This document shows, one piece after another, positions 42,974 through 52,599 of a stretch of DNA of 64,000 nt (position 1 is the stretch's first letter; each line of letters opens with the position of its first letter). A program made the translations under genes and the position numbers. The stretch is from Cytophagaceae bacterium (GTDB taxonomy: Bacteria > Bacteroidota > Bacteroidia > Cytophagales > UBA9547), in NCBI GenBank assembly GCA_027488865.1, contig JAIYAU010000025.1, forward strand, positions 62,001 to 126,000, read 5' to 3'. The notes beneath the pieces are model-generated. The model was not told the origin of the DNA and searched no databases. It saw only the letters and a list, made by a program, of their open reading frames with translations.

Positions 42974-43828
42974 ATGAAAAAAACAAATGCTATTGTTGAA
43001 AATAGAAAAGGAGTTGCACTAGGTCTGTTGATCATCAATTTAGTAGTAGCAGTAAGTGCATTTTTCTTAATAAGTAAACTTTGGTATCTTTCTTTGTTTT
43101 CGGCAGCAATTATCAGTTTTGTACCATTTTTATTTCTTCAATTTTCCAGCAACCCACTTTTAAAACAGAAATATTGGATTGGTATGATTGTTGCTTTTTT
43201 AGGTGGCTTTTTAACTTCCATATTTTACAGTAATTACTATAGTATCAACACCTCCAAAGTCACAATTGAAAGTGTTACAAAATTAGATGCAAAGGATATT
43301 CACAACACCAAAGATAGTGTTATTCATCTCTCTAATTATAAAGTAATGTTGGATGTGGAAGGTTTATATCACAATAAATTAAGAGATCAATCTGAAAATT
43401 ATGTTGTTTACCCAATTGTCCCAAAAACTTGGAAATCTGGAGATTCAGTTATCGTTTGGGCTGGATTTTCTCACAACGCTGAGATATTTGGAAAAACCAA
43501 AGCCGAATTCATAAGGCAAATAAAATCAAGTAATAGTTTAGCATTTCACATTAGAAATGAATATGAACTTAAAAAATATGAAAGAGCCTTGTATGAAACA
43601 GGTTTTCTACATGGGCTAAAAATTAGACAACATTCAATGGTATTCAAGTTTGTTGATGCCGAGATGGAGAGAATTTTTTGGTTAGTTCGTTTTGTTATTG
43701 GAATGTTTGTGATTAACGGTTTATGGTTATTTATTACGATACCGCTTATAAATAAACTAAAAGATAATACTGAGGAATTAAAAGAAGTTGTGACCGAATC
43801 AATTTCTACATCTGCTATAAACAAGTAG
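42974..43828 (+). CDS. Three-TM hypothetical membrane protein
   Basis: A 284-aa protein of unrecognised family. Two or three hydrophobic segments lie in residues ~14-80 (VALGLLIINLVVAVSAFFLI; YWIGMIVAFLGGFLTSIFYS), then ~130 extracytoplasmic-looking residues rich in charged and aromatic side chains (WKSGDSVIVWAGFSHNAEIF), and a last helix near the C-terminus (VRFVIGMFVINGLWLFITI). The longer frame starts at a TTG (42896); I take the ATG at 42974. The 3' end overlaps the convergent AlbA_2 gene by 14 nt. Confidence 0.78.
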   Translation: MKKTNAIVENRKGVALGLLIINLVVAVSAFFLISKLWYLSLFSAAIISFVPFLFLQFSSNPLLKQKYWIGMIVAFLGGFLTSIFYSNYYSINTSKVTIESVTKLDAKDIHNTKDSVIHLSNYKVMLDVEGLYHNKLRDQSENYVVYPIVPKTWKSGDSVIVWAGFSHNAEIFGKTKAEFIRQIKSSNSLAFHIRNEYELKKYERALYETGFLHGLKIRQHSMVFKFVDAEMERIFWLVRFVIGMFVINGLWLFITIPLINKLKDNTEELKEVVTESISTSAINK

Positions 43829-44435
43829 AAAAGGTCTCCTTATTATTCAAATAATTAATTTTAATAACCTTGCTATTAACCAGTTTAACCAAAATTGGTA
43901 TTGATTTTTTTCTTTTTATTTTAAATTTTTTTTCAAAAGATTTAAGATCAATAAATGTTTGATTTTCCAATGTAGTAAGTAATCCTTTTTCGATTTCTGA
44001 AAATTCAATTGTATTATTTACATGCTTATTTCTAAGTGCTTCTAAGGTGACAATACCTGCCAAAATTGTTTCATCTAACACCCTTACATAAGCCCACCAA
44101 TATCCATTTTCATCTTTTGCAAAAGTTGGTTTAATGATACTCTCCTTCACTTCCACCACCAACACTTGTTTGTCATTTTCTTCAATTACCTCAAATTCTA
44201 CGTCAATATTGGGTTTACAAAAATTGGAAATAGCAGCTTCAATCATATAACGCTCTTCATCTGGCTCAATTCCCAATATTTTGCCATTATCTTTAACTCC
44301 AATTATAAGTCTGCCTCCGTGGGTATTGGCAAATGCAACCAAGGTTTTAGCTATCTTGGCCGCACTAGTTATAGCCAGCTTAAAGTCCTGGTGTTGATTT
44401 TCCCCTTGGTTAATAAACAACTCCAATTTGGTCAT
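43815..44435 (-). CDS. AlbA_2/Schlafen-like domain protein
   Basis: A 206-aa protein. The N-terminal two thirds match the AlbA_2 nucleic-acid-binding domain: QGENQHQDFKLAITSAAKIA, KTLVAFANTHGGRLIIGVKD, and ISNFCKPNIDVEFEVIEE. The C-terminal ~65 residues (KGLLTTLENQTFIDLKSF) look like a small winged-helix domain. Such proteins are usually transcription-associated or defence-linked; here no partner gene is adjacent. The ATG at 44435 is well defined. Confidence 0.82.
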   Translation of the reverse strand: MTKLELFINQGENQHQDFKLAITSAAKIAKTLVAFANTHGGRLIIGVKDNGKILGIEPDEERYMIEAAISNFCKPNIDVEFEVIEENDKQVLVVEVKESIIKPTFAKDENGYWWAYVRVLDETILAGIVTLEALRNKHVNNTIEFSEIEKGLLTTLENQTFIDLKSFEKKFKIKRKKSIPILVKLVNSKVIKINYLNNKETFSTCL

Positions 44436-44839: not shown

Positions 44840-45358
44840 ATGTCTACTAATTTCCTGAAGATAATTTTGTTTGGGTTTATGGCAATTTTATCTTTTGTTT
44901 TTATTTATCCCTTATTTTTAGCTGATAGATATCAAGTTATCCAAGAAAAGTACATAAACAACACCGTTGAAATTACTTTTCATCAAACCTTTCACTTCGA
45001 CAGCCTTAAAAGGTGGAATCTATTTTTAGATGAAGATCTCAAGTTTGACTCTATTCAACAACTAGGAAAAAAATACCCTTGGCGAGCTAAAATGTTTGGC
45101 TCTGGAAAGATACAAGTAGATTCCATTTATACAAATAACAAAATACATTCTACAATCTTTATTGAAGAACCATTTGAAAGTAAAATAAATATAGTTTGGG
45201 ATATTACAAGTACGGGTTCTACACAAACACTGATTAAGTGCACTGTATCAGGGAGCTTATCTTACCCATTTGGAAGATTTTTGGAAGGTCAAATGGTCAA
45301 TTTTATTAATTCCAAGTTACAAAAAAGTTTCAACAAACTAGAACAAAGAAATTCTTAG
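44840..45358 (+). CDS. SRPBCC-like membrane-anchored protein
   Basis: A 172-aa protein with one N-terminal transmembrane helix (IILFGFMAILSFVFIYPLFL) and a Bet v1-like fold: VEITFHQTFHFDSLKRWNLF, then the central strands and the final helix FLEGQMVNFINSKLQKSFNK. Same general class as the protein at 29366-29911 but with no close similarity. It probably shares a transcript with the lipoprotein gene. Its 3' end overlaps the convergent VWA gene by 4 nt. Confidence 0.75.
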   Translation: MSTNFLKIILFGFMAILSFVFIYPLFLADRYQVIQEKYINNTVEITFHQTFHFDSLKRWNLFLDEDLKFDSIQQLGKKYPWRAKMFGSGKIQVDSIYTNNKIHSTIFIEEPFESKINIVWDITSTGSTQTLIKCTVSGSLSYPFGRFLEGQMVNFINSKLQKSFNKLEQRNS

Positions 45359-46494
45359 CCTTTTTTAACTCCTATATCGTTAGCACTGGCCCAAAGCCCA
45401 ATATCTTGTTTGCTTAATGCCGCCGCCATTAAATCGGGAAATTTATCTGGGGTGCATGCAAAAACTGGTACTCCAAGATCCGCCAAAAATTGTGCATTTT
45501 TATGATCATAATAAGGTGCTCCATCATCATTTAATGCTAGCAATACCACCAACTGCACTCCTGCCGATACTATTTCAAACATTTTTTTTCTCATTTGAGC
45601 CTCATTTCCACCTTCAAAAAGATCTGTGATAAGTACCATCACAGTATCAGTAGGTCTTGTGATAACTTGCTGGCAATAGGTTAATGCTTTATGAATATCA
45701 GTACCACCTCCAAGCTGCACCCCAAACAATAATTCTACTGGGTCTTGCAGATCTTCGGTAAGATCAACTACAGCCGTATCAAAAACTACCATTTTGGTTT
45801 TTACGGCTGGCAGTGAGGCCATTACCGAACCAAAAATACCTGAGTAGATTACGGATGTACCCATTGAACCACTTTGATCTAGACACAAAACAATGTCTTT
45901 TAATGCTTTACGCTTGCGCCCAAAACCAACAAGCTTTTCTGGAATGATGGTTTTATATTTTGGCTGATAATTTTTTAAATTCTTTTGAATGGTTCCCTTC
46001 CAATCAATTTCATTTTGTTTGGGTCTGTTATTCTTAGCAGAGCGATTAAGTGCTCCTGCTACTGCTTGTTGCATGGGTGAAGCTAATTTTCTTAAAAGAT
46101 CCTCCACAACTCGTCTCACTACTTGTCGTGCGGTATCTTTGGTTTTTTCAGGAATAACCCTACTTAAACTCATTAATGTAGCTACCAAATGCACATCAGG
46201 TTCAACGGATTCAAGCATTTCCTTCTCCATCAACAATGAGGTAATGTTAAGTCGCTTAATAGCATCTTGTTGCATTATTTTTACAACTGCAGTTGGAAAA
46301 AATTCACGAATATCGCCTAACCAACGACTTACATTTGGTGCAGAAGCACCCAACCCCCCTTTTCGCTCGCTATCATAAAGTGCATCCAATGCCTTGTCCA
46401 TTTTAGCATCTTGAGGATCAAGCTGGTATCCAGTACCATCATTGTCGTGATTTCCGATAATCAGCCTCCACTTTCTAATCGTATCTTCACTCAT
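45355..46494 (-). CDS. VWA-domain protein (last gene of the MoxR cassette)
   Basis: A 379-aa cytoplasmic protein. A ~200-residue helical N-terminus (DTIRKWRLIIGNHDNDGTGY) is followed by a von Willebrand A domain with an intact MIDAS: DQSGSMG (~residue 205), GGGTDIHKAL, and LITDLFEGGN, supplying DxSxS, Thr and Asp for Mg2+. In MoxR/VWA pairs this domain binds client proteins whose remodelling is driven by the AAA+ partner, encoded two genes upstream. 8 nt after the DUF5682 stop. Confidence 0.92.
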   Translation of the reverse strand: MSEDTIRKWRLIIGNHDNDGTGYQLDPQDAKMDKALDALYDSERKGGLGASAPNVSRWLGDIREFFPTAVVKIMQQDAIKRLNITSLLMEKEMLESVEPDVHLVATLMSLSRVIPEKTKDTARQVVRRVVEDLLRKLASPMQQAVAGALNRSAKNNRPKQNEIDWKGTIQKNLKNYQPKYKTIIPEKLVGFGRKRKALKDIVLCLDQSGSMGTSVIYSGIFGSVMASLPAVKTKMVVFDTAVVDLTEDLQDPVELLFGVQLGGGTDIHKALTYCQQVITRPTDTVMVLITDLFEGGNEAQMRKKMFEIVSAGVQLVVLLALNDDGAPYYDHKNAQFLADLGVPVFACTPDKFPDLMAAALSKQDIGLWASANDIGVKKG

Positions 46495-46502
46495 GCTATT
46501 AA

Positions 46503-48737
46503 TTATTTCAAATTTAAAAGTTGTAGGATAACAGGCATACCCTTTAATCCCTTTTCAAAATCGAAGTCAACTTCCTGTTGTTTCAATATTGGGTTTATGT
46601 CCATCCCCAATTTAGCTTTTTCACCAATTTTATGACGTTCTGCTGGCGAGTAATTACTAAATGTTCTTCGTAACAATGGTAAAAGTTGAACAAAGATCTC
46701 TTCCTGAAGACCTGCAACCCAATTATATAAAATGGCCCAAAGTGAGTCGTCCAATAATAAAATTGTCCCACTGCCCGAAAGAAATCCTTCTGCCCAAAAT
46801 GCTGCATTCATAGGCTCCCCACCCGTAGAAAGAGCATATCCAAAATGAGTGGCAACTTCTTCATGTGATAGAACTTTTGTATCAAGTAATAACCTCGTAG
46901 CAAATCCACTTAGTAACGGGTGACATTGGTTGTTATTAGATAAAATTTTAATAGTTTCATACCATTCTTGAGACTTATCATCCAATTGTATCAACAAAAT
47001 TGCTTGATTTACCTGAGTTATAAGTTCTAACAATTGCTGTGCGGCTGTTTCATCTATACCAGTTGCGGCTAAAGGCAATCCGATACAAGAACGAGTTAAT
47101 AAGGCATTGGCTATTGTTGATAACATAGATGTATCTGTTTGACGCACATCACCATATCTCATAATTCTGGCAATATTCGGTATAGCTTTCATTAAAGCCT
47201 GTACATCGTTAGCAGTAGCTGCCACTTGATCTAACTTTATCACCAACGCTTCTACTGCACTAGCCAAATTTGAAGGAATGGCTTTTTCTAACATTTCTGA
47301 CAGACTCACTACATCTAGCTGATGTTGAGCTTCATGAATCAGTAAATTATTTGCAGCTTCTTCGATTGTATTTCCCCAAACTCCTTGTTCAATTACTTTA
47401 ATGGAATATTCTGGTTGCCATTGCACCATCCACACCTCTTTAAATGTGCCTTTGCCAGTGCTTCTGCCCTCATGCCCCCATTCAATCCCTATAATTTTTA
47501 GCCGATGTAACAATATACTTCTAGCCAAATCATTCTCTTGCCTGAGATCAAGGGTATATTCCTTAATTCCTGCTTCCGCAGGCATTCTTAATTTTTTCTG
47601 TAAATTTTCTAAATCAAGCAGTAAAGGTACTTTTGGCACACTAATAGGAACCTCCCCAATCCTATCACTCACTATTAATTGTGACTTAATTAACTCTAAA
47701 ATGATACCATCTCCAAATCCCATAATGGCGGTGGTGGCCTCATTAAACTCATTTAGTCCTGCTCGACTACGCATTCGTATTGCAGCTAAGGCATTGGCCA
47801 ATCGCACAGATTCAACCACGTGAGCCACAGAAGTATCCATTCTGTTTTCTCGAAGTAATTTGGCAATTGTTGACATCCAAATTGTGCCATCATCTTCATT
47901 ATTGTTCCAAAGGTGATGGTACCAGCCAGGAGAATGAATACCAGCACCGTAGCCACTATTAAAAGTTAATCTTTCATAGGTCCACGGAATCCATGTAGTT
48001 TCTATTTTTACTTTAGGAAGACCTTTTAAAAGTTCCTGATCCTCTTTAACAATTTGTAAATTAGTGTCTAGTGCAGGAACGTGCCAAGCACCACAAATTA
48101 CAACTATCGTATTATAGCCATCTTTTTGGGTTTGTTTGATAACCTTGCGCATCCATGCCTCTCTTAATTCATCTCTATGGTTTTTAAATTGAGTGTTTTC
48201 TCTTAAAGCTTTAACAGCCTCTTTTACAGCATCAAAAACTTGGGAATTATTATTTCTACTTTCAAACTGAAGATCCCACCATGTTTCGCCGTCGGGTAAC
48301 CCATCAATATCAGCAAAATATTGAAATGGATCGGAGTATAATTTATCGCCAAAGTTGGTATTTATATTTTGTATTGGAGCAGCCTCATAATTATCAGTAT
48401 TTTGTTCTTGTTGAATATCCAAAGCAAAAGAATGTGCCAATGGAAGGTCGAAAAATTTTAGAGGAATACCATTTTTAACGGCAAACTGCATTGACTGCCA
48501 TTCGGGAGAAAATTCTGCAAATGGATAAAATGAAGCTTTTTTAGGTTGTTGGGGCAAATAAGCTAATAATGCTATTGGCGGTTTTAAGTTAGAATCGGCA
48601 AGGTAATTAAGCATACTCTCGCCTTCAGGAGGACCTTCTACCAATAATATATCTGGACGAATCTGTTCAAGAAAGGATTTAACGTTTCTTGCCGACCCTA
48701 CCCCATGGTGCCTTATTCCTAATACATGTAATGCCAT
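46503..48737 (-). CDS. DUF5682 protein with a TIKI/ChaN-like N-terminal domain
   Basis: A 744-aa protein. Residues 1-~240 have two GxxH motifs (GIRHHG at 7-12; CGAWHVPAL at ~215-223), an EGPPEGE motif and FFDLPLAHSF, an arrangement like the ChaN/EreA/TIKI metal-dependent hydrolase superfamily, which I infer rather than know for this family. The rest (~250-744) is largely alpha-helical with repeats and no clear motif. It lies between the AAA+ gene (4 nt) and the VWA gene (8 nt). The catalytic activity and target are unknown. Confidence 0.85.
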   Translation of the reverse strand: MALHVLGIRHHGVGSARNVKSFLEQIRPDILLVEGPPEGESMLNYLADSNLKPPIALLAYLPQQPKKASFYPFAEFSPEWQSMQFAVKNGIPLKFFDLPLAHSFALDIQQEQNTDNYEAAPIQNINTNFGDKLYSDPFQYFADIDGLPDGETWWDLQFESRNNNSQVFDAVKEAVKALRENTQFKNHRDELREAWMRKVIKQTQKDGYNTIVVICGAWHVPALDTNLQIVKEDQELLKGLPKVKIETTWIPWTYERLTFNSGYGAGIHSPGWYHHLWNNNEDDGTIWMSTIAKLLRENRMDTSVAHVVESVRLANALAAIRMRSRAGLNEFNEATTAIMGFGDGIILELIKSQLIVSDRIGEVPISVPKVPLLLDLENLQKKLRMPAEAGIKEYTLDLRQENDLARSILLHRLKIIGIEWGHEGRSTGKGTFKEVWMVQWQPEYSIKVIEQGVWGNTIEEAANNLLIHEAQHQLDVVSLSEMLEKAIPSNLASAVEALVIKLDQVAATANDVQALMKAIPNIARIMRYGDVRQTDTSMLSTIANALLTRSCIGLPLAATGIDETAAQQLLELITQVNQAILLIQLDDKSQEWYETIKILSNNNQCHPLLSGFATRLLLDTKVLSHEEVATHFGYALSTGGEPMNAAFWAEGFLSGSGTILLLDDSLWAILYNWVAGLQEEIFVQLLPLLRRTFSNYSPAERHKIGEKAKLGMDINPILKQQEVDFDFEKGLKGMPVILQLLNLK

Positions 48738-48741
48738 AGTG

Positions 48742-49818
48742 CTACATTAAATCGCGACAAGCACGATAAAGATCTTTCCAATTGTCTCTGTTTTTTATTA
48801 CTGTTTCCATGTATTCTTTCCAAATAAGTTGGTCTTGAACTGGATCTTTAACAACAGCTCCTAAAATACCCGCCGCAAGATCAGCCGCTTTTAAACTACC
48901 ATCACCAAAATAACCAGCCATAGAAAGACCACTATTTACTACTGAAATGGCCTCAGCAGTGCTAAGCGTACCAGAAGGCGACTTTAATTTTGTTTTTCCG
49001 TCAAGTGTTACACCATTTCTTAACTCGCGAAAAATGGTAACAATTCGGTTAATTTCCTCTAGTGCTGGTTTTTCGGCCGGAAACTCCATTATTTTCTCAA
49101 AACTCGCCACTCTGCGTTTTACAATGTCAGCTTCTTCCTCGAGCGTTTCTGGTAATGGTAAAATTACGGTATTAAATCTGCGCTTTAAAGCACTTGAAAG
49201 TTCGTTTACACCTTTATCTCGATTATTAGCTGTAGCAATAACGTTAAATCCTCTTACTGCCTGTATTTCAGTGTTTAACTCTGGTATTGGCATTGTTTTT
49301 TCTGACAAAATTGTAATTAGAGTATCTTGTACATCAGCGCCAATTCTGGTTAATTCTTCAATTCTTGCAATCTTACCATCTCTCATGGCGTTAAACATAG
49401 GTGTGCGGACGAGAGCGTCTTCACTTGGGCCTTCTGCAATCAATTTGGCATAATTCCATCCGTATCTTATTGCCTCCTCACCTGTACCAGCAGTACCTTG
49501 TATTACTCTAGTTGAATCTCCGCTAACTGCAGCAGCCAAATGCTCAGCTACCCAAGATTTAGCAGTGCCAGGCAAGCCATATAGCAACAATGCCCTGTCG
49601 GTTGTAAGTGTGGCTATGGCGATTTCCATAAGGCGCTTACTACCAATATATTTAGGAGAAATTTCAAAACCATTTTTCAATTTTCCACCCATCAAGTAGG
49701 TCAATACTGATTGAGGAGATAATTCCCAGTTTTGTGGCACTTTGTTGTTTTCTTGCTTTTTTAGTTCTTGTAATTCTTCAGCAAATTGTACTTCGGCGTG
49801 TTGTCTTAAAATACTCAT
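48742..49818 (-). CDS. MoxR-like AAA+ ATPase
   Basis: A 358-aa AAA+ ATPase. Walker A is GLPGTAKS (residues 81-88). The sensor 1 region FNVIATANNRDKGVNELSSA leads into KRRFNTVILPLPETLEEE with the arginine finger. At the Walker B position the sequence is ARIEE (151-155), so the usual Asp-Glu pair appears as Glu-Glu; similar variants exist in this cassette type as I recall it. MoxR ATPases act as chaperones that work with VWA proteins. The stop is 4 nt before the DUF5682 gene and the start 2 nt after DUF5691. Confidence 0.93.
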   Translation of the reverse strand: MSILRQHAEVQFAEELQELKKQENNKVPQNWELSPQSVLTYLMGGKLKNGFEISPKYIGSKRLMEIAIATLTTDRALLLYGLPGTAKSWVAEHLAAAVSGDSTRVIQGTAGTGEEAIRYGWNYAKLIAEGPSEDALVRTPMFNAMRDGKIARIEELTRIGADVQDTLITILSEKTMPIPELNTEIQAVRGFNVIATANNRDKGVNELSSALKRRFNTVILPLPETLEEEADIVKRRVASFEKIMEFPAEKPALEEINRIVTIFRELRNGVTLDGKTKLKSPSGTLSTAEAISVVNSGLSMAGYFGDGSLKAADLAAGILGAVVKDPVQDQLIWKEYMETVIKNRDNWKDLYRACRDLM

Positions 49819-49820
49819 GA

Positions 49821-51305
49821 TTATATCGCTTTTTTTATTTGTTCTTTTAGTTCAATTAATACTCTAAATTGATTTTGCATATTTTTCAATAATGTTTTTC
49901 GATACTCATCTTCTTGTTGCACATTATCTAAATCAGATAAAATTGTACTTGGCAGGTATAAACTTAATGCCTCACACGTCGCTCTATTGTTCCAATATAA
50001 ATTCTTTGCAAAATCCTGCACTACAGCTTTAGAAAAATTATATGGCCAATCTTCATAATCAGATTTTTGAAGCACAAGCTGAATTGTGTAGTCAAAAAGC
50101 TGATTTTTTAAGAAAGGAAGCGCAAAAACAAAAAGCTTTTTCAAATCTAACAATTCTAACAAATAGTGTTGATCTCGCCCAAAACGTTCCAATGCCAATA
50201 TTGACCAATCTGTTAGCTTAAATTTATGTATTGCCTTACAAAGAGCTACTCTAAAATAGGCCAATTGATCCATATTATCAAATAACTCAATAACCTCTTG
50301 AGGGCTCATTGAAAAATGAACCGTCCAAAAATGAGGAGGAGCCTCTGCAACAAGTTGATAGAGAATAAAATCCTCATCTTTAATCTTTTTATCATTACTT
50401 AATTTTTCTATACCAGTCAAAAAAACGGTATCATCTTCAATTTTAAGCTCAACCACCACCGATTTTTTAGAAAGTATTCCGAGTATTTTAGATTGTGAGA
50501 GTGTAAATGAATTGGCTAGAATTTTTTGGTATTGCAGAATAATATGGCTAGACGCTATGGATTTGAGCAAATCAATAGACTTTTCTTTGACTTTTGTACT
50601 TTTATCTTGGATGCAAGACTGCAAAAAATCTTCGTCGTCAAGATTAAGGTTAGTAGCCAAACTACCTAATAATTCAACTCGATGCGCGGCATTTTCTTCT
50701 TTCCAAATGGCCTTGATTTTATCCAAAGCTAAATTTGGTTCTGTTTGTCGTAATTTTTCAAGATATCTAATTCTATCTTTAGAACTGGCTGTTTCCCATT
50801 CAATGTTTTCTACTGGCTTGACTATAATGGAATTCCAATCTTTTTCAAATTGCGCCAACCATTTACCTCGTTCACCAATCACCTTTACAAAAGATTCAGC
50901 ACTTGTTTTTTTATTCGTTAATCCCCATTGAAAAAACTCTGTCAATAGATTTGGAGGCACAATCAAGCCTTTTTGCGCACACAACTCCACCCAAAGCCAA
51001 GTTAAACTTTGATAATTATTGGCCAAAATTGTCGTAAGTAAGTTGCTTGCTTCAAGGGAGCAATAAGACAAGGTTTCATTGGGTGCAACGTTAGCTATAA
51101 GTTCTGTCTTAGAAGGTGAAAATCCAGCTTTATAACAATTAAAAGCGACTGCGGTAATACCAAGAAATTGGGTTTCTTTATCTTTTAATTTATCTGCAAA
51201 ATCATTTGCAATAGCTTGTAATGGTTCTGGTATATCATTTGTTGAAATCACTTTCTTCTCGGTGCCGAGTAGGGCATGATTAATTAGTATTCTTTTAAAA
51301 TCCAT
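49821..51305 (-). CDS. DUF5691 helical-repeat protein
   Basis: A 494-aa all-helical protein from the ATG at 51305. It starts MDFKRILINHALLGTEKKVI, the pattern of DUF5691 as I know it. The middle (IRYLEKLRQTEPNLALDKIK, IWKEENAAHRVELLGSLATN) and VALCKAIHKFK read like HEAT-type pairs of helices. No enzyme motif is seen. A 21-nt longer start (51326) exists, but 51305 gives the family N-terminus; it overlaps the SWIM gene by 11 nt, so coupling is likely. Probably an adaptor for the AAA+ complex. Confidence 0.85.
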   Translation of the reverse strand: MDFKRILINHALLGTEKKVISTNDIPEPLQAIANDFADKLKDKETQFLGITAVAFNCYKAGFSPSKTELIANVAPNETLSYCSLEASNLLTTILANNYQSLTWLWVELCAQKGLIVPPNLLTEFFQWGLTNKKTSAESFVKVIGERGKWLAQFEKDWNSIIVKPVENIEWETASSKDRIRYLEKLRQTEPNLALDKIKAIWKEENAAHRVELLGSLATNLNLDDEDFLQSCIQDKSTKVKEKSIDLLKSIASSHIILQYQKILANSFTLSQSKILGILSKKSVVVELKIEDDTVFLTGIEKLSNDKKIKDEDFILYQLVAEAPPHFWTVHFSMSPQEVIELFDNMDQLAYFRVALCKAIHKFKLTDWSILALERFGRDQHYLLELLDLKKLFVFALPFLKNQLFDYTIQLVLQKSDYEDWPYNFSKAVVQDFAKNLYWNNRATCEALSLYLPSTILSDLDNVQQEDEYRKTLLKNMQNQFRVLIELKEQIKKAI

Positions 51306-52599
51306 TACTCTTAGGGTTTGAAGCATTTAAAATAGAGAGCGGCAGCACAGAATTCTCATTAATAAGCATAAAAACACGTACGGGTGCACCACCTGTAATG
51401 GCCAAAATATGTAATTCTGCTTGAATACCCACTAACACTGGCAACGCAAATCCTTGTTGATCAACCGCATAAAAAGAATTTCTTTCCTTTATAAAAGAAA
51501 TATTTTCTATTAGAATTGGAACTTCGTCCATAAAAGGGTTATCTGCCAATGATTTATTAAATATGGTATAGGCGGCCTCAAAATTTTGTAAAAACACTAG
51601 ATCATTATTGGAATTAATCAAAGACCAATCTTTTAGTAGCACCCTATAATTTCTCCCAGGATAATACACCACTTCTGCATCAATGGTGGTATTTGGTAAT
51701 AAGTTTTGCTCAGGAAGCTGTGCTGTTGGATAAAATTGAATAAATAATGCGAATTTTTTTGTTTTTACTCCCCATAGCCAATTATGTTCAACAACAATTT
51801 TATCTAGAGGTTGTACGTTTTTTGATAACACCATCCATTGGTCTTTTACACCTTCTAACGCAGTTAACTGCTCCTTATTTTGGTTAAATCCAATCAACAA
51901 CTTTACCTCTTGTTGTAGATCAACAGGGAGCGTTTCAAGGTTATTATAGGCCTCAGAAAGTAAATAAATTTTGACTAGTTGGTTTAAAACGTTGTATTGC
52001 CATGAATCATCAAAATAATTATAATTTCCAAGTTCGGCAACCATATTAGCCAACCCTCCTGCTTGGGCATCTACTAATCTTTTATTGGGCAACTGCCAAT
52101 ATTCATAGGCTCGGTTTGGCAAATCGAGAAGTCCAGATTTAATAATATCTTTTATCCATGTTTGCAATTCAGCAATTCCCTGAATCACTTTTTTATTTCT
52201 AGCATCAGCGCGTTTAGCTTGTGCTTCGACATCAACTGGTTTGGCCGCAATTTCCGATTTTTTTTCTTCTTTTTCTTTCCTTTTATCAAGCCATTCACTT
52301 ACCCAAGACGGCTCATCTTGGGTTTTGAAACTTGCTTTACTTTTAACATATAGTAAAAGCAACCCAAGACCATGTTTACATGGAAATTTTCGACTTGGGC
52401 AAGTGCATTTAAAAGCAATATTATGAATATCGACTTGAGTTTGATACGGTAATTTGCCACTACCTTGACATTCACCCCACAAAGCCCGCTCGTTATTTGC
52501 AGCTAGCACCCATTTAGATTGAGATGACAACCCTTGACCCGCCTTAAGAGAGGCAGGATCTGGAGAAAGGGTAACAATTTGTTCCTCGGTAAATTGCAT
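51295..52599 (-). CDS. SWIM zinc-finger protein (first gene of the MoxR cassette)
   Basis: A 434-aa protein with a SWIM finger near its start: C65-x-C67...C74-x-H76 in CTCPSRKFPCKHGLG. A basic coiled-coil linker (~110-150: EWLDKRKEKEEKKSEIAAKP) follows, then a beta-rich domain of unknown fold. SWIM fingers bind DNA or protein. First in a five-gene minus-strand operon (SWIM, DUF5691, MoxR-type AAA+, DUF5682, VWA) with gaps of -11 to 8 nt; a near-consensus promoter lies 28 nt upstream. Confidence 0.9.
   Translation of the reverse strand: MQFTEEQIVTLSPDPASLKAGQGLSSQSKWVLAANNERALWGECQGSGKLPYQTQVDIHNIAFKCTCPSRKFPCKHGLGLLLLYVKSKASFKTQDEPSWVSEWLDKRKEKEEKKSEIAAKPVDVEAQAKRADARNKKVIQGIAELQTWIKDIIKSGLLDLPNRAYEYWQLPNKRLVDAQAGGLANMVAELGNYNYFDDSWQYNVLNQLVKIYLLSEAYNNLETLPVDLQQEVKLLIGFNQNKEQLTALEGVKDQWMVLSKNVQPLDKIVVEHNWLWGVKTKKFALFIQFYPTAQLPEQNLLPNTTIDAEVVYYPGRNYRVLLKDWSLINSNNDLVFLQNFEAAYTIFNKSLADNPFMDEVPILIENISFIKERNSFYAVDQQGFALPVLVGIQAELHILAITGGAPVRVFMLINENSVLPLSILNASNPKSNGF

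Follow-up and report, generated by a model that had tools for sequence, protein, structure and literature searches.

A conserved five-gene MoxR-VWA cassette related to Escherichia coli YehLMPQ and its putative TraB/Tiki-like hydrolase domain

Introduction

In the NorQD system, the von Willebrand factor A (VWA) adaptor puts a finger into the pore of the MoxR ring and passes force to the client (PMC13036017, PMC9976466). In the MoxR-vWA ternary conflict systems, a third part is present, described as VMAP, iSTAND, FtsH or a vWA-fused beta-propeller, together with variable effector domains (PMC7159879). Escherichia coli K-12 carries a further set of genes, in the order yehI (DUF4132), yehK, yehL (MoxR), yehM (DUF5682), yehP (VWA), and yehQ (SWIM). 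Here, we describe a related cassette from a Cytophagaceae bacterium (contig JAIYAU010000025.1), located at 45355-52599 on the minus strand of the window, that is, the whole stretch of 64,000 nucleotides that was analysed. Its five open reading frames (ORFs) encode, in order of transcription, a SWIM zinc-finger protein, a DUF5691 protein, a MoxR AAA+ ATPase, a DUF5682 protein, and a CoxE-type VWA protein. Both the MoxR-VWA principle and the relatives in E. coli were already known; the DUF5691 form, the exact co-inheritance of the parts, and the TraB/Tiki-like domain of DUF5682 appear to be new, as they were not found in the open literature searched. That search, which did not cover subscription papers, also returned no functional study of yehLMPQ among the entries listed and no paper with DUF5682 or DUF5691.

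Results

Linkage and co-inheritance of the five genes

A scan of genome contigs with a pattern derived from the DUF5682 alignment recovered at least 572 relatives, the best 80 of which were kept. Genes were counted with profiles for the five families, made in Python from those loci; because the 80 were chosen as nearest to the query, they lean to the form found in the window. All five genes were present in 66 of the 80, and chance was rejected as the cause of the fixed gene order, since all 66 complete loci shared both order and strand. The original prediction had proposed one unit of five parts, which this count bears out, and the possibility that the genes are rarely together elsewhere did not hold. 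The SWIM gene was found in 67 of the 80, and spacing at the four successive junctions was between -60 and 50 nt in 58, 56, 42, and 60 of the 66 loci. The closest relatives of the window cassette among these 80 are Bacteroidota, and the locus titles name groups that we take to be Bacteroidota, Cyanobacteria, Chloroflexi, Planctomycetes, Verrucomicrobia, Acidobacteria, Proteobacteria, Actinobacteria, and Trueperaceae. Two of the loci (L029 and L036) are near-duplicates by coordinates. Among the incomplete loci, L019, L032, and L050 reach contig ends, L052 is flanked by just 1.5 kb on the upstream side and 0.6 kb on the downstream side, L045 and L080, both starting at a contig end, have a DUF4132-like gene, L067 is without the SWIM gene, and L031 is without the three upstream genes.

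Co-inheritance was followed in 296 genomes of the window's phylum, taken as Bacteroidota, at thresholds of E 1e-20 or better for MoxR and VWA and E 0.001 for DUF5691. DUF5682, SWIM, MoxR, and VWA were each found in seven genomes, and these seven were identical (G000, G023, G037, G126, G162, G166, and G178; five families); a naive calculation that ignores kinship puts the chance of two seven-genome sets coinciding at 2.7e-14. DUF5691 matched in eight genomes, namely the same seven, of which six pass the family cut-off, and G014, where the match is below that cut-off and the other four parts are absent. In three of the seven genomes, the genes have dispersed and all are kept: they lie at five places on four contigs in G037 and over three contigs in G178, and in G162, MoxR, DUF5682, and a weak DUF5691 match lie together, with SWIM and VWA on other contigs. 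These three genomes belong to one family. As the genes are kept in genomes without linkage, the five proteins probably work together, and we regard this as the strongest evidence. The window's own genome has one match per cassette family at the thresholds used. In G166, the VWA match (G166:C1:2000751-2001863) crosses one TAA; our own scan of the same place (L139) gave a strong VWA score in an uninterrupted frame, and the gene is thus probably intact.

Fusions agree with a one-unit reading: SWIM and DUF5691 share one open frame in L004, L039, L077, L083, L086, and also L152, and L007, a locus on a Streptomyces plasmid, has DUF5682 and VWA joined in a single protein. Mirror-tree correlations across the five families (58 loci and the window) were r 0.77-0.93, to which shared species history contributes, as they were computed without an unlinked control gene. 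Taken together, it is nearly certain that the five genes form one unit. Nearest tree distances were short for MoxR (0.27) and VWA (0.41) and 1.3 to 2.0 for SWIM, DUF5682, and DUF5691, which thus evolve several times faster, a feature that would suit a conflict system.

Several loci depart from the common layout. Genes are inserted between MoxR and DUF5682 in L043 (4079-4801), L004 (8368-8979), and L078 (7593-9944), with a weak TPR match in L078 only. On a Methylosinus OB3b plasmid (L006 11160-12385), the VWA matches are spread over three ORFs that overlap one another and the annotation shows no VWA gene, which makes it probable that the copy is in decay; on a Hymenobacter radiodurans plasmid (hit H2), DUF5682 is annotated in three pieces.

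Relation to the E. coli Yeh proteins

The window MoxR aligns with E. coli YehL at 40% identity over 357 amino acids (aa; E 5e-79) and with RavA at 22% over 110 aa (E 0.009), and is therefore nearer to YehL of the two MoxR subfamilies compared. The window VWA aligns with YehP at 34% identity over 365 aa (E 8e-76) and DUF5682 with YehM at 27% over 520 aa (E 5e-39); YehQ aligns with the SWIM protein at the finger only and without significance. Because MoxR, DUF5682, and VWA are related to YehL, YehM, and YehP, and the DUF5682 and VWA genes adjoin MoxR as expected of a YehL-type cassette, the window cassette is, judged by sequence, a variant of the YehL-type MoxR-VWA system, with DUF4132 treated as a variable part. 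No DUF4132 was found among the flanking window proteins tested, the window having DUF5691 instead; a hidden DUF5691 in YehQ or YehI was also searched for, with no support.

The MoxR-VWA motor pair of the original prediction is upheld by these relatives and by its conserved sites. MoxR has an intact Walker A motif, and E154 and E155 of its Walker B-like motif are present at ≥95% in 76 sequences, YehL included, where RavA has LDE. The metal ion-dependent adhesion site (MIDAS) of the VWA protein is complete, with D206, S208, S210, T265, and D291 at ≥95% in 77 sequences. The closest solved natural relatives of MoxR by sequence are Midasin and NorQ, the NorQ match being weak (E 2e-4), and a sequence search of the PDB with the VWA protein found no relative.

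The DUF4132 form occurs on plasmids of Iodobacter (L154), Agrobacterium vitis (L153), and Sinorhizobium (L155), in two gene orders, and both DUF5691 and DUF4132 are present in six Bacteroidota loci (L010, L011, L012, L015, L021, and L024). As the forms vary in this way across loci, the usual core appears to be MoxR, DUF5682, VWA, and SWIM with either DUF5691 or DUF4132. The DUF4132 protein of L010 has a HEAT match below cut-off, and the two families may thus be equivalent scaffolds. In E. coli, yehM is present in 5284 of 5426 genomes (at 80% coverage in 5166), with a median of one place per genome and all but 2 of 5291 places chromosomal, which argues against a conflict system. The yeh block was deleted in the reduced strain DGF-298 (PMC10652928), and yehL and yehM are reportedly missing from Shigella sonnei lineages 2 and 3 (PMC12795559). 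In E. coli HNSQ2209 (hit H21), an IS5-family element interrupts yehM.

A probable TraB/Tiki-like domain in DUF5682

The PDB structure search used the whole AlphaFold2 model of DUF5682 (predicted local distance difference test, pLDDT, 88.4), and most matches came from the helical half. The top VIA-align match was between residues 1-232 and 7w5z_E (Z 9.5, root-mean-square deviation 4.6, 185 aligned residues), and rows 2 and 3 were the same protein in other entries. The PDB names 7w5z_E a ‘TraB family protein’, our own TraB profile, built from five TIGR00261 loci and from none of the PF01963 loci, matches it at E 2e-8, and a TraB-family subunit is mentioned in a figure legend (PMC10060162). Aligned with hhalign, DUF5682 and the TraB profile scored 41.8 (E 2e-4, probability 46%, 243 columns), and 38.6 under another column setting, as against 17.6 for the reversed TraB profile and no more than 29.9 when the columns were shuffled 100 times.

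The alignment pairs H10 with H13, E34 with E37, R192 with R184, and H219 with H208 (DUF5682 first), and the motifs G-I-R-H and G-A-W-H with G-T-A-H and G-A-G-H, respectively. Among 50 DUF5682 sequences, H10, E34, R192, G216, and H219 are invariant and G7 is present at ≥90%; H10, E34, R192, and H219 are also invariant in a six-sequence set with E. coli YehM and the Streptomyces form, and 84 of 87 DUF5682 proteins show every element of a crude motif pattern. In the model, H10, E34, and H219 directly follow predicted strands and R192 lies in a helix. TIKI enzymes have an active site of His and Glu residues with a conserved basic residue (PMC6254334). The original prediction had called this N-terminus hydrolase-like; from model match, motif order, and profile alignment, it is likely to have a TraB/Tiki-like fold, with putative hydrolase activity. 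PDB sequence searches with DUF5682 found no relative (one row at E 0.24), and none was found among solved structures for the E. coli TraB family protein YbaP. The other TIKI folds ChaN and Ere were not among the matches listed for the whole model, which is no evidence against such folds. The helical half matched VPS35, transportin, and the PP2A scaffold in VIA-align at Z of about 7-8.6, values that are middling and that helical proteins easily reach.

The SWIM and DUF5691 proteins

SWIM fingers bind DNA or proteins. The Cys/His finger of the original prediction is borne out in the window protein, with C65, C67, C74, and H76 invariant in 36 sequences, and a PDB sequence search with this protein found no relative. 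The HEAT-like nature proposed for DUF5691 is likewise supported, by a profile match to alphaRep/HEAT chains (best E 8.6e-5) around the stretch given in Table 1 and by VIA-align matches of the AlphaFold2 model (pLDDT 91.6) to HEAT/armadillo chains at Z 8.4 or less. The fusion L086 was tried as a fold stand-in for both proteins and dropped, as MAFFT aligned some 100-125 residues of DUF5691 with the SWIM part, a number that trimming lowered to about 50-80.

Cassette layout and neighbouring genes

The Pfam matches of all five proteins exceed the curated cut-offs (Table 1). The last three junctions have gaps of 2, 4, and 8 nt; SWIM and DUF5691 overlap by 32 nt with the first ATG of DUF5691, or by 11 nt with the in-frame ATG at residue 8. 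The tight packing described earlier (-11, 2, 4, and 8 nt) thus agrees with the ORF list, the first value holding if DUF5691 starts at the residue-8 ATG, and from this spacing the cassette is presumably co-transcribed. On the same strand, 89 nt separate the SWIM start from the end of an upstream gene for a penicillin-binding protein, and the transcript may therefore be longer; at the other end, the VWA stop and a short convergent gene share 4 nt. The neighbouring genes in the window appear unrelated to the cassette; near the cassette end, 43815-44435 encodes a small protein with a Schlafen AlbA_2 domain.

Table 1. Genes and sequence features of the cassette, with positions in the window.
Feature	Position	Strand	Support
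SWIM zinc-finger protein, first gene, 434 aa	51295..52599	-	Pfam PF04434, 21.7 bits (cut-off 19.6)
SWIM finger CTCPSRKFPCKH, residues C65-H76	52372..52407	-	four invariant residues
DUF5691 helical protein, 501 aa; possible start 51305	49821..51326	-	PF18944, 256 bits
HEAT-repeat stretch of DUF5691, about residues 191-265	50532..50756	-	profile and VIA-align matches
MoxR AAA+ ATPase, YehL type, 358 aa	48742..49818	-	AAA_5, 122 bits
Walker A GLPGTAKS of MoxR, residues 81-88	49555..49578	-	conserved
Walker B-like KIARIEELTR of MoxR, residues 149-158, EE for DE	49345..49374	-	E154, E155
DUF5682 protein, 744 aa, YehM relative	46503..48737	-	PF18934, 846 bits
Putative TraB/Tiki-like alpha/beta domain of DUF5682, residues 1-255, H10, E34, R192, H219	47973..48737	-	model, hhalign, conservation
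HEAT/armadillo-like helical half of DUF5682, about residues 440-714	46596..47420	-	AlphaFold2 model nearly all-helical
CoxE-type VWA protein, 379 aa, YehP relative	45355..46494	-	PF05762 (VWA_CoxE), 164 bits
MIDAS DxSxS / T / D of VWA, residues 206-210, 265, 291	45622..45879	-	

Genomic surroundings and the question of defence

The surroundings were surveyed through flanking proteins, the nearest 114 out of 121. These gave 146 Pfam families, and in the 25 that occurred most often, DUF4132 was the commonest, in 5 of the 114, and all others, including short-chain dehydrogenases and AraC regulators, reached three at most. PADLOC gave trace matches to MoxR (E 1e-4 or weaker) and none to the other four parts; 38 PADLOC families match single flanking proteins, as a conflict system might lead one to expect, and none matches more than one. 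The cassette is patchy, being found in 7 of the 296 phylum genomes, 25 of 148 genomes of the order, and 1 of the 10 listed for the window's own family, and relatives occur in 36 records of a plasmid collection, some of them chromosome-sized; both observations would be at home in a conflict system. The Iodobacter plasmid copy (L154 1-17437), a DUF4132-form cassette on a plasmid typed as mobilizable, lies between insertion sequences and type I restriction genes, a setting that points the same way. Phage data weigh in the opposite direction: a single match was found among 50,697 phage records, and no relative was confirmed when viral contigs were scanned with a pattern. The single match is a MoxR-DUF5682-VWA set (L150 166-4876) on an unverified faecal scaffold titled ‘Bacteriophage sp.’, for which bacterial contamination is likely because it scores much like the Fusobacterium copy L149 with the profiles. 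The defence function raised in the original prediction is thus weakly supported: the flank, PADLOC, and phage results weigh against it, the flanks, having no recurring PADLOC family, do not support a defence island, and the E. coli relative is near-core.

Discussion

Our best single guess, held at a little short of even confidence, is that the cassette encodes one multi-part YehL-type MoxR-VWA machine in which remodelling is coupled to hydrolysis. MoxR would form an ATP-driven ring, on which the CoxE-type VWA protein would dock while gripping the client through its MIDAS metal site; that this pair remodels a client is suggested by analogy with NorQD. The HEAT-like DUF5691 and the SWIM protein could act as one recognition or scaffold arm presenting the client, the helical half of DUF5682 is a further candidate for client holding, and the TraB/Tiki-like domain would hydrolyse (most likely cleave) or otherwise process the remodelled client. 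We put forward more tentatively a wider version, in which a widespread MoxR-VWA ring would feed clients to a built-in TraB/Tiki-type protease (DUF5682), the zinc-finger protein would select the client, the HEAT arm (DUF5691 or DUF4132) would be exchangeable, and E. coli YehLMPQ would be a near-core representative. Gene families that are near-core in E. coli and scattered across many phyla are here drawn together into one system with named parts and testable residues. Should the TraB/Tiki-like domain prove to be an active protease, this would link MoxR-VWA rings with proteolysis or processing, beyond folding and metal insertion.

Several observations weigh against this machine, some of which concern its parts. 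DUF5691 is absent beside yehLMPQ in E. coli and, by its own profile, from the Fusobacterium copy L149, which has the core parts; DUF5682 occurs without the other four genes nearby in 6 of the 80 loci (L030, L037, L046, L047, L065, and L073), several of which have short flanks. In G162, the DUF5691 match beside MoxR is below the family cut-off, and the SWIM match leaves out residues 1-131 and, with them, perhaps the finger. Of the 25 commonest families in the flanks, none stands out as a client of the cassette. Others concern the hydrolase, whose relation to TraB is remote. Foldseek ranked 7w5z_E first but at E 0.01, and the fourth VIA-align row, a designed repeat protein on the other half of the model, reached Z 9.1, barely under 9.5. 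The N-terminal piece scored 27.6 against the TraB domain, with shuffle maxima of 27.1 (100 shuffles) and 23.6 (50), so near the shuffled maximum that the sequence link by itself is suggestive. The Pfam family PF01963 reached E 0.037 at best, in 1 of 50 DUF5682 members, and since its cut-off is not passed, the domain is called TraB/Tiki-like and not a PF01963 member. The first GxxH is PxxH (Pro for G7) in the Deinococcus copy L005, and L038, L040, and L048 each fail one element of the crude motif pattern. Furthermore, not all proteins of the TIKI fold are enzymes, PMT reportedly being without the 2His/2Glu set (PMC6254334).

The rival that survives best, although we consider it unlikely, is a dedicated maturation chaperone, in which MoxR-VWA would open an apo-enzyme encoded elsewhere for metal or cofactor entry, as do NorQD, CoxDE, and MoxR, and the TraB-like domain would be non-catalytic and bind the client or a metal. 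Of the MoxR proteins and MoxR-VWA pairs characterised so far, several are needed to mature an enzyme, be it methanol dehydrogenase, nitric oxide reductase, or CO dehydrogenase (PMC3893208, PMC9976466, PMC13036017), the window VWA belongs to the CoxE family, its MoxR matches NorQ, if weakly, and one of the 114 flanking proteins has a molybdopterin cofactor-binding domain. Other MoxR proteins, however, have membrane, stress, or virus-tail roles (PMC3893208), the commonest flank family is DUF4132, at 5 of 114 proteins, and the putative catalytic residues of DUF5682 are invariant in all 50 sequences, beyond what a scaffold needs. The cofactor insertion suggested in the original prediction is a possible function, but no client enzyme to go with it stands out among the 25 commonest flank families.

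Less probable still is a stress or DNA-damage module whose targets would be protein complexes bound to nucleic acid; its nucleic-acid side would be the SWIM finger or partners of the DUF4132/WGR type. The binding habits of SWIM fingers and the presence of DUF4132 as partner in the E. coli-type form would fit such a role, and mitomycin C induces the DUF4132 protein DRA0166 of Deinococcus radiodurans under the DNA-damage regulators DdrO/IrrE (PMC8533742). The operon there is drA0165-drA0166, however, and that paper does not mention MoxR, VWA, or SWIM (PMC8533742); the 25 commonest flank families, too, include none for repair. Least probable of all is a conflict system, anti-phage or other, as a further branch of the MoxR-vWA ternary systems: its patchiness, plasmid copies, and fast-evolving parts notwithstanding, yehM is near-universal and chromosomal in E. 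coli, the flank and phage surveys weigh against it, and Pfam finds no variable effector domain on the parts, unlike those systems as described (PMC7159879).

The machine proposed here, with remodelling coupled to hydrolysis, can be set beside the known systems. It resembles NorQD, CoxDE, and RavA-ViaA in joining an AAA+ ring ATPase to a VWA adaptor with MIDAS; we know of no DUF5682, DUF5691, or SWIM part described for any of the three, and RavA and ViaA barely align with the window proteins. Like the MoxR-vWA ternary conflict systems, the cassette combines MoxR, vWA, and extra parts in one operon, but membership, which the original prediction had entertained, is not supported: none of the five proteins has a Pfam match over cut-off to VMAP, iSTAND, FtsH, or beta-propeller, leaving no defining third part, and the bpMoxR match (22.2 bits) is below its cut-off of 27. 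DUF5682 is like the TraB/Tiki superfamily in its collinear GxxH, E, R, and GxxH and, as far as the model match of residues 1-255 can show, probably in fold, and unlike it in falling below the PF01963 threshold, in its fused HEAT-like half, and in its genetic tie to an AAA+ motor. The likeness is closest to the Yeh proteins of E. coli, as MoxR, DUF5682, a CoxE-type VWA protein, and a SWIM protein are encoded together in both; the differences are that E. coli carries YehI (DUF4132) where the window has DUF5691 and that its SWIM gene comes last.

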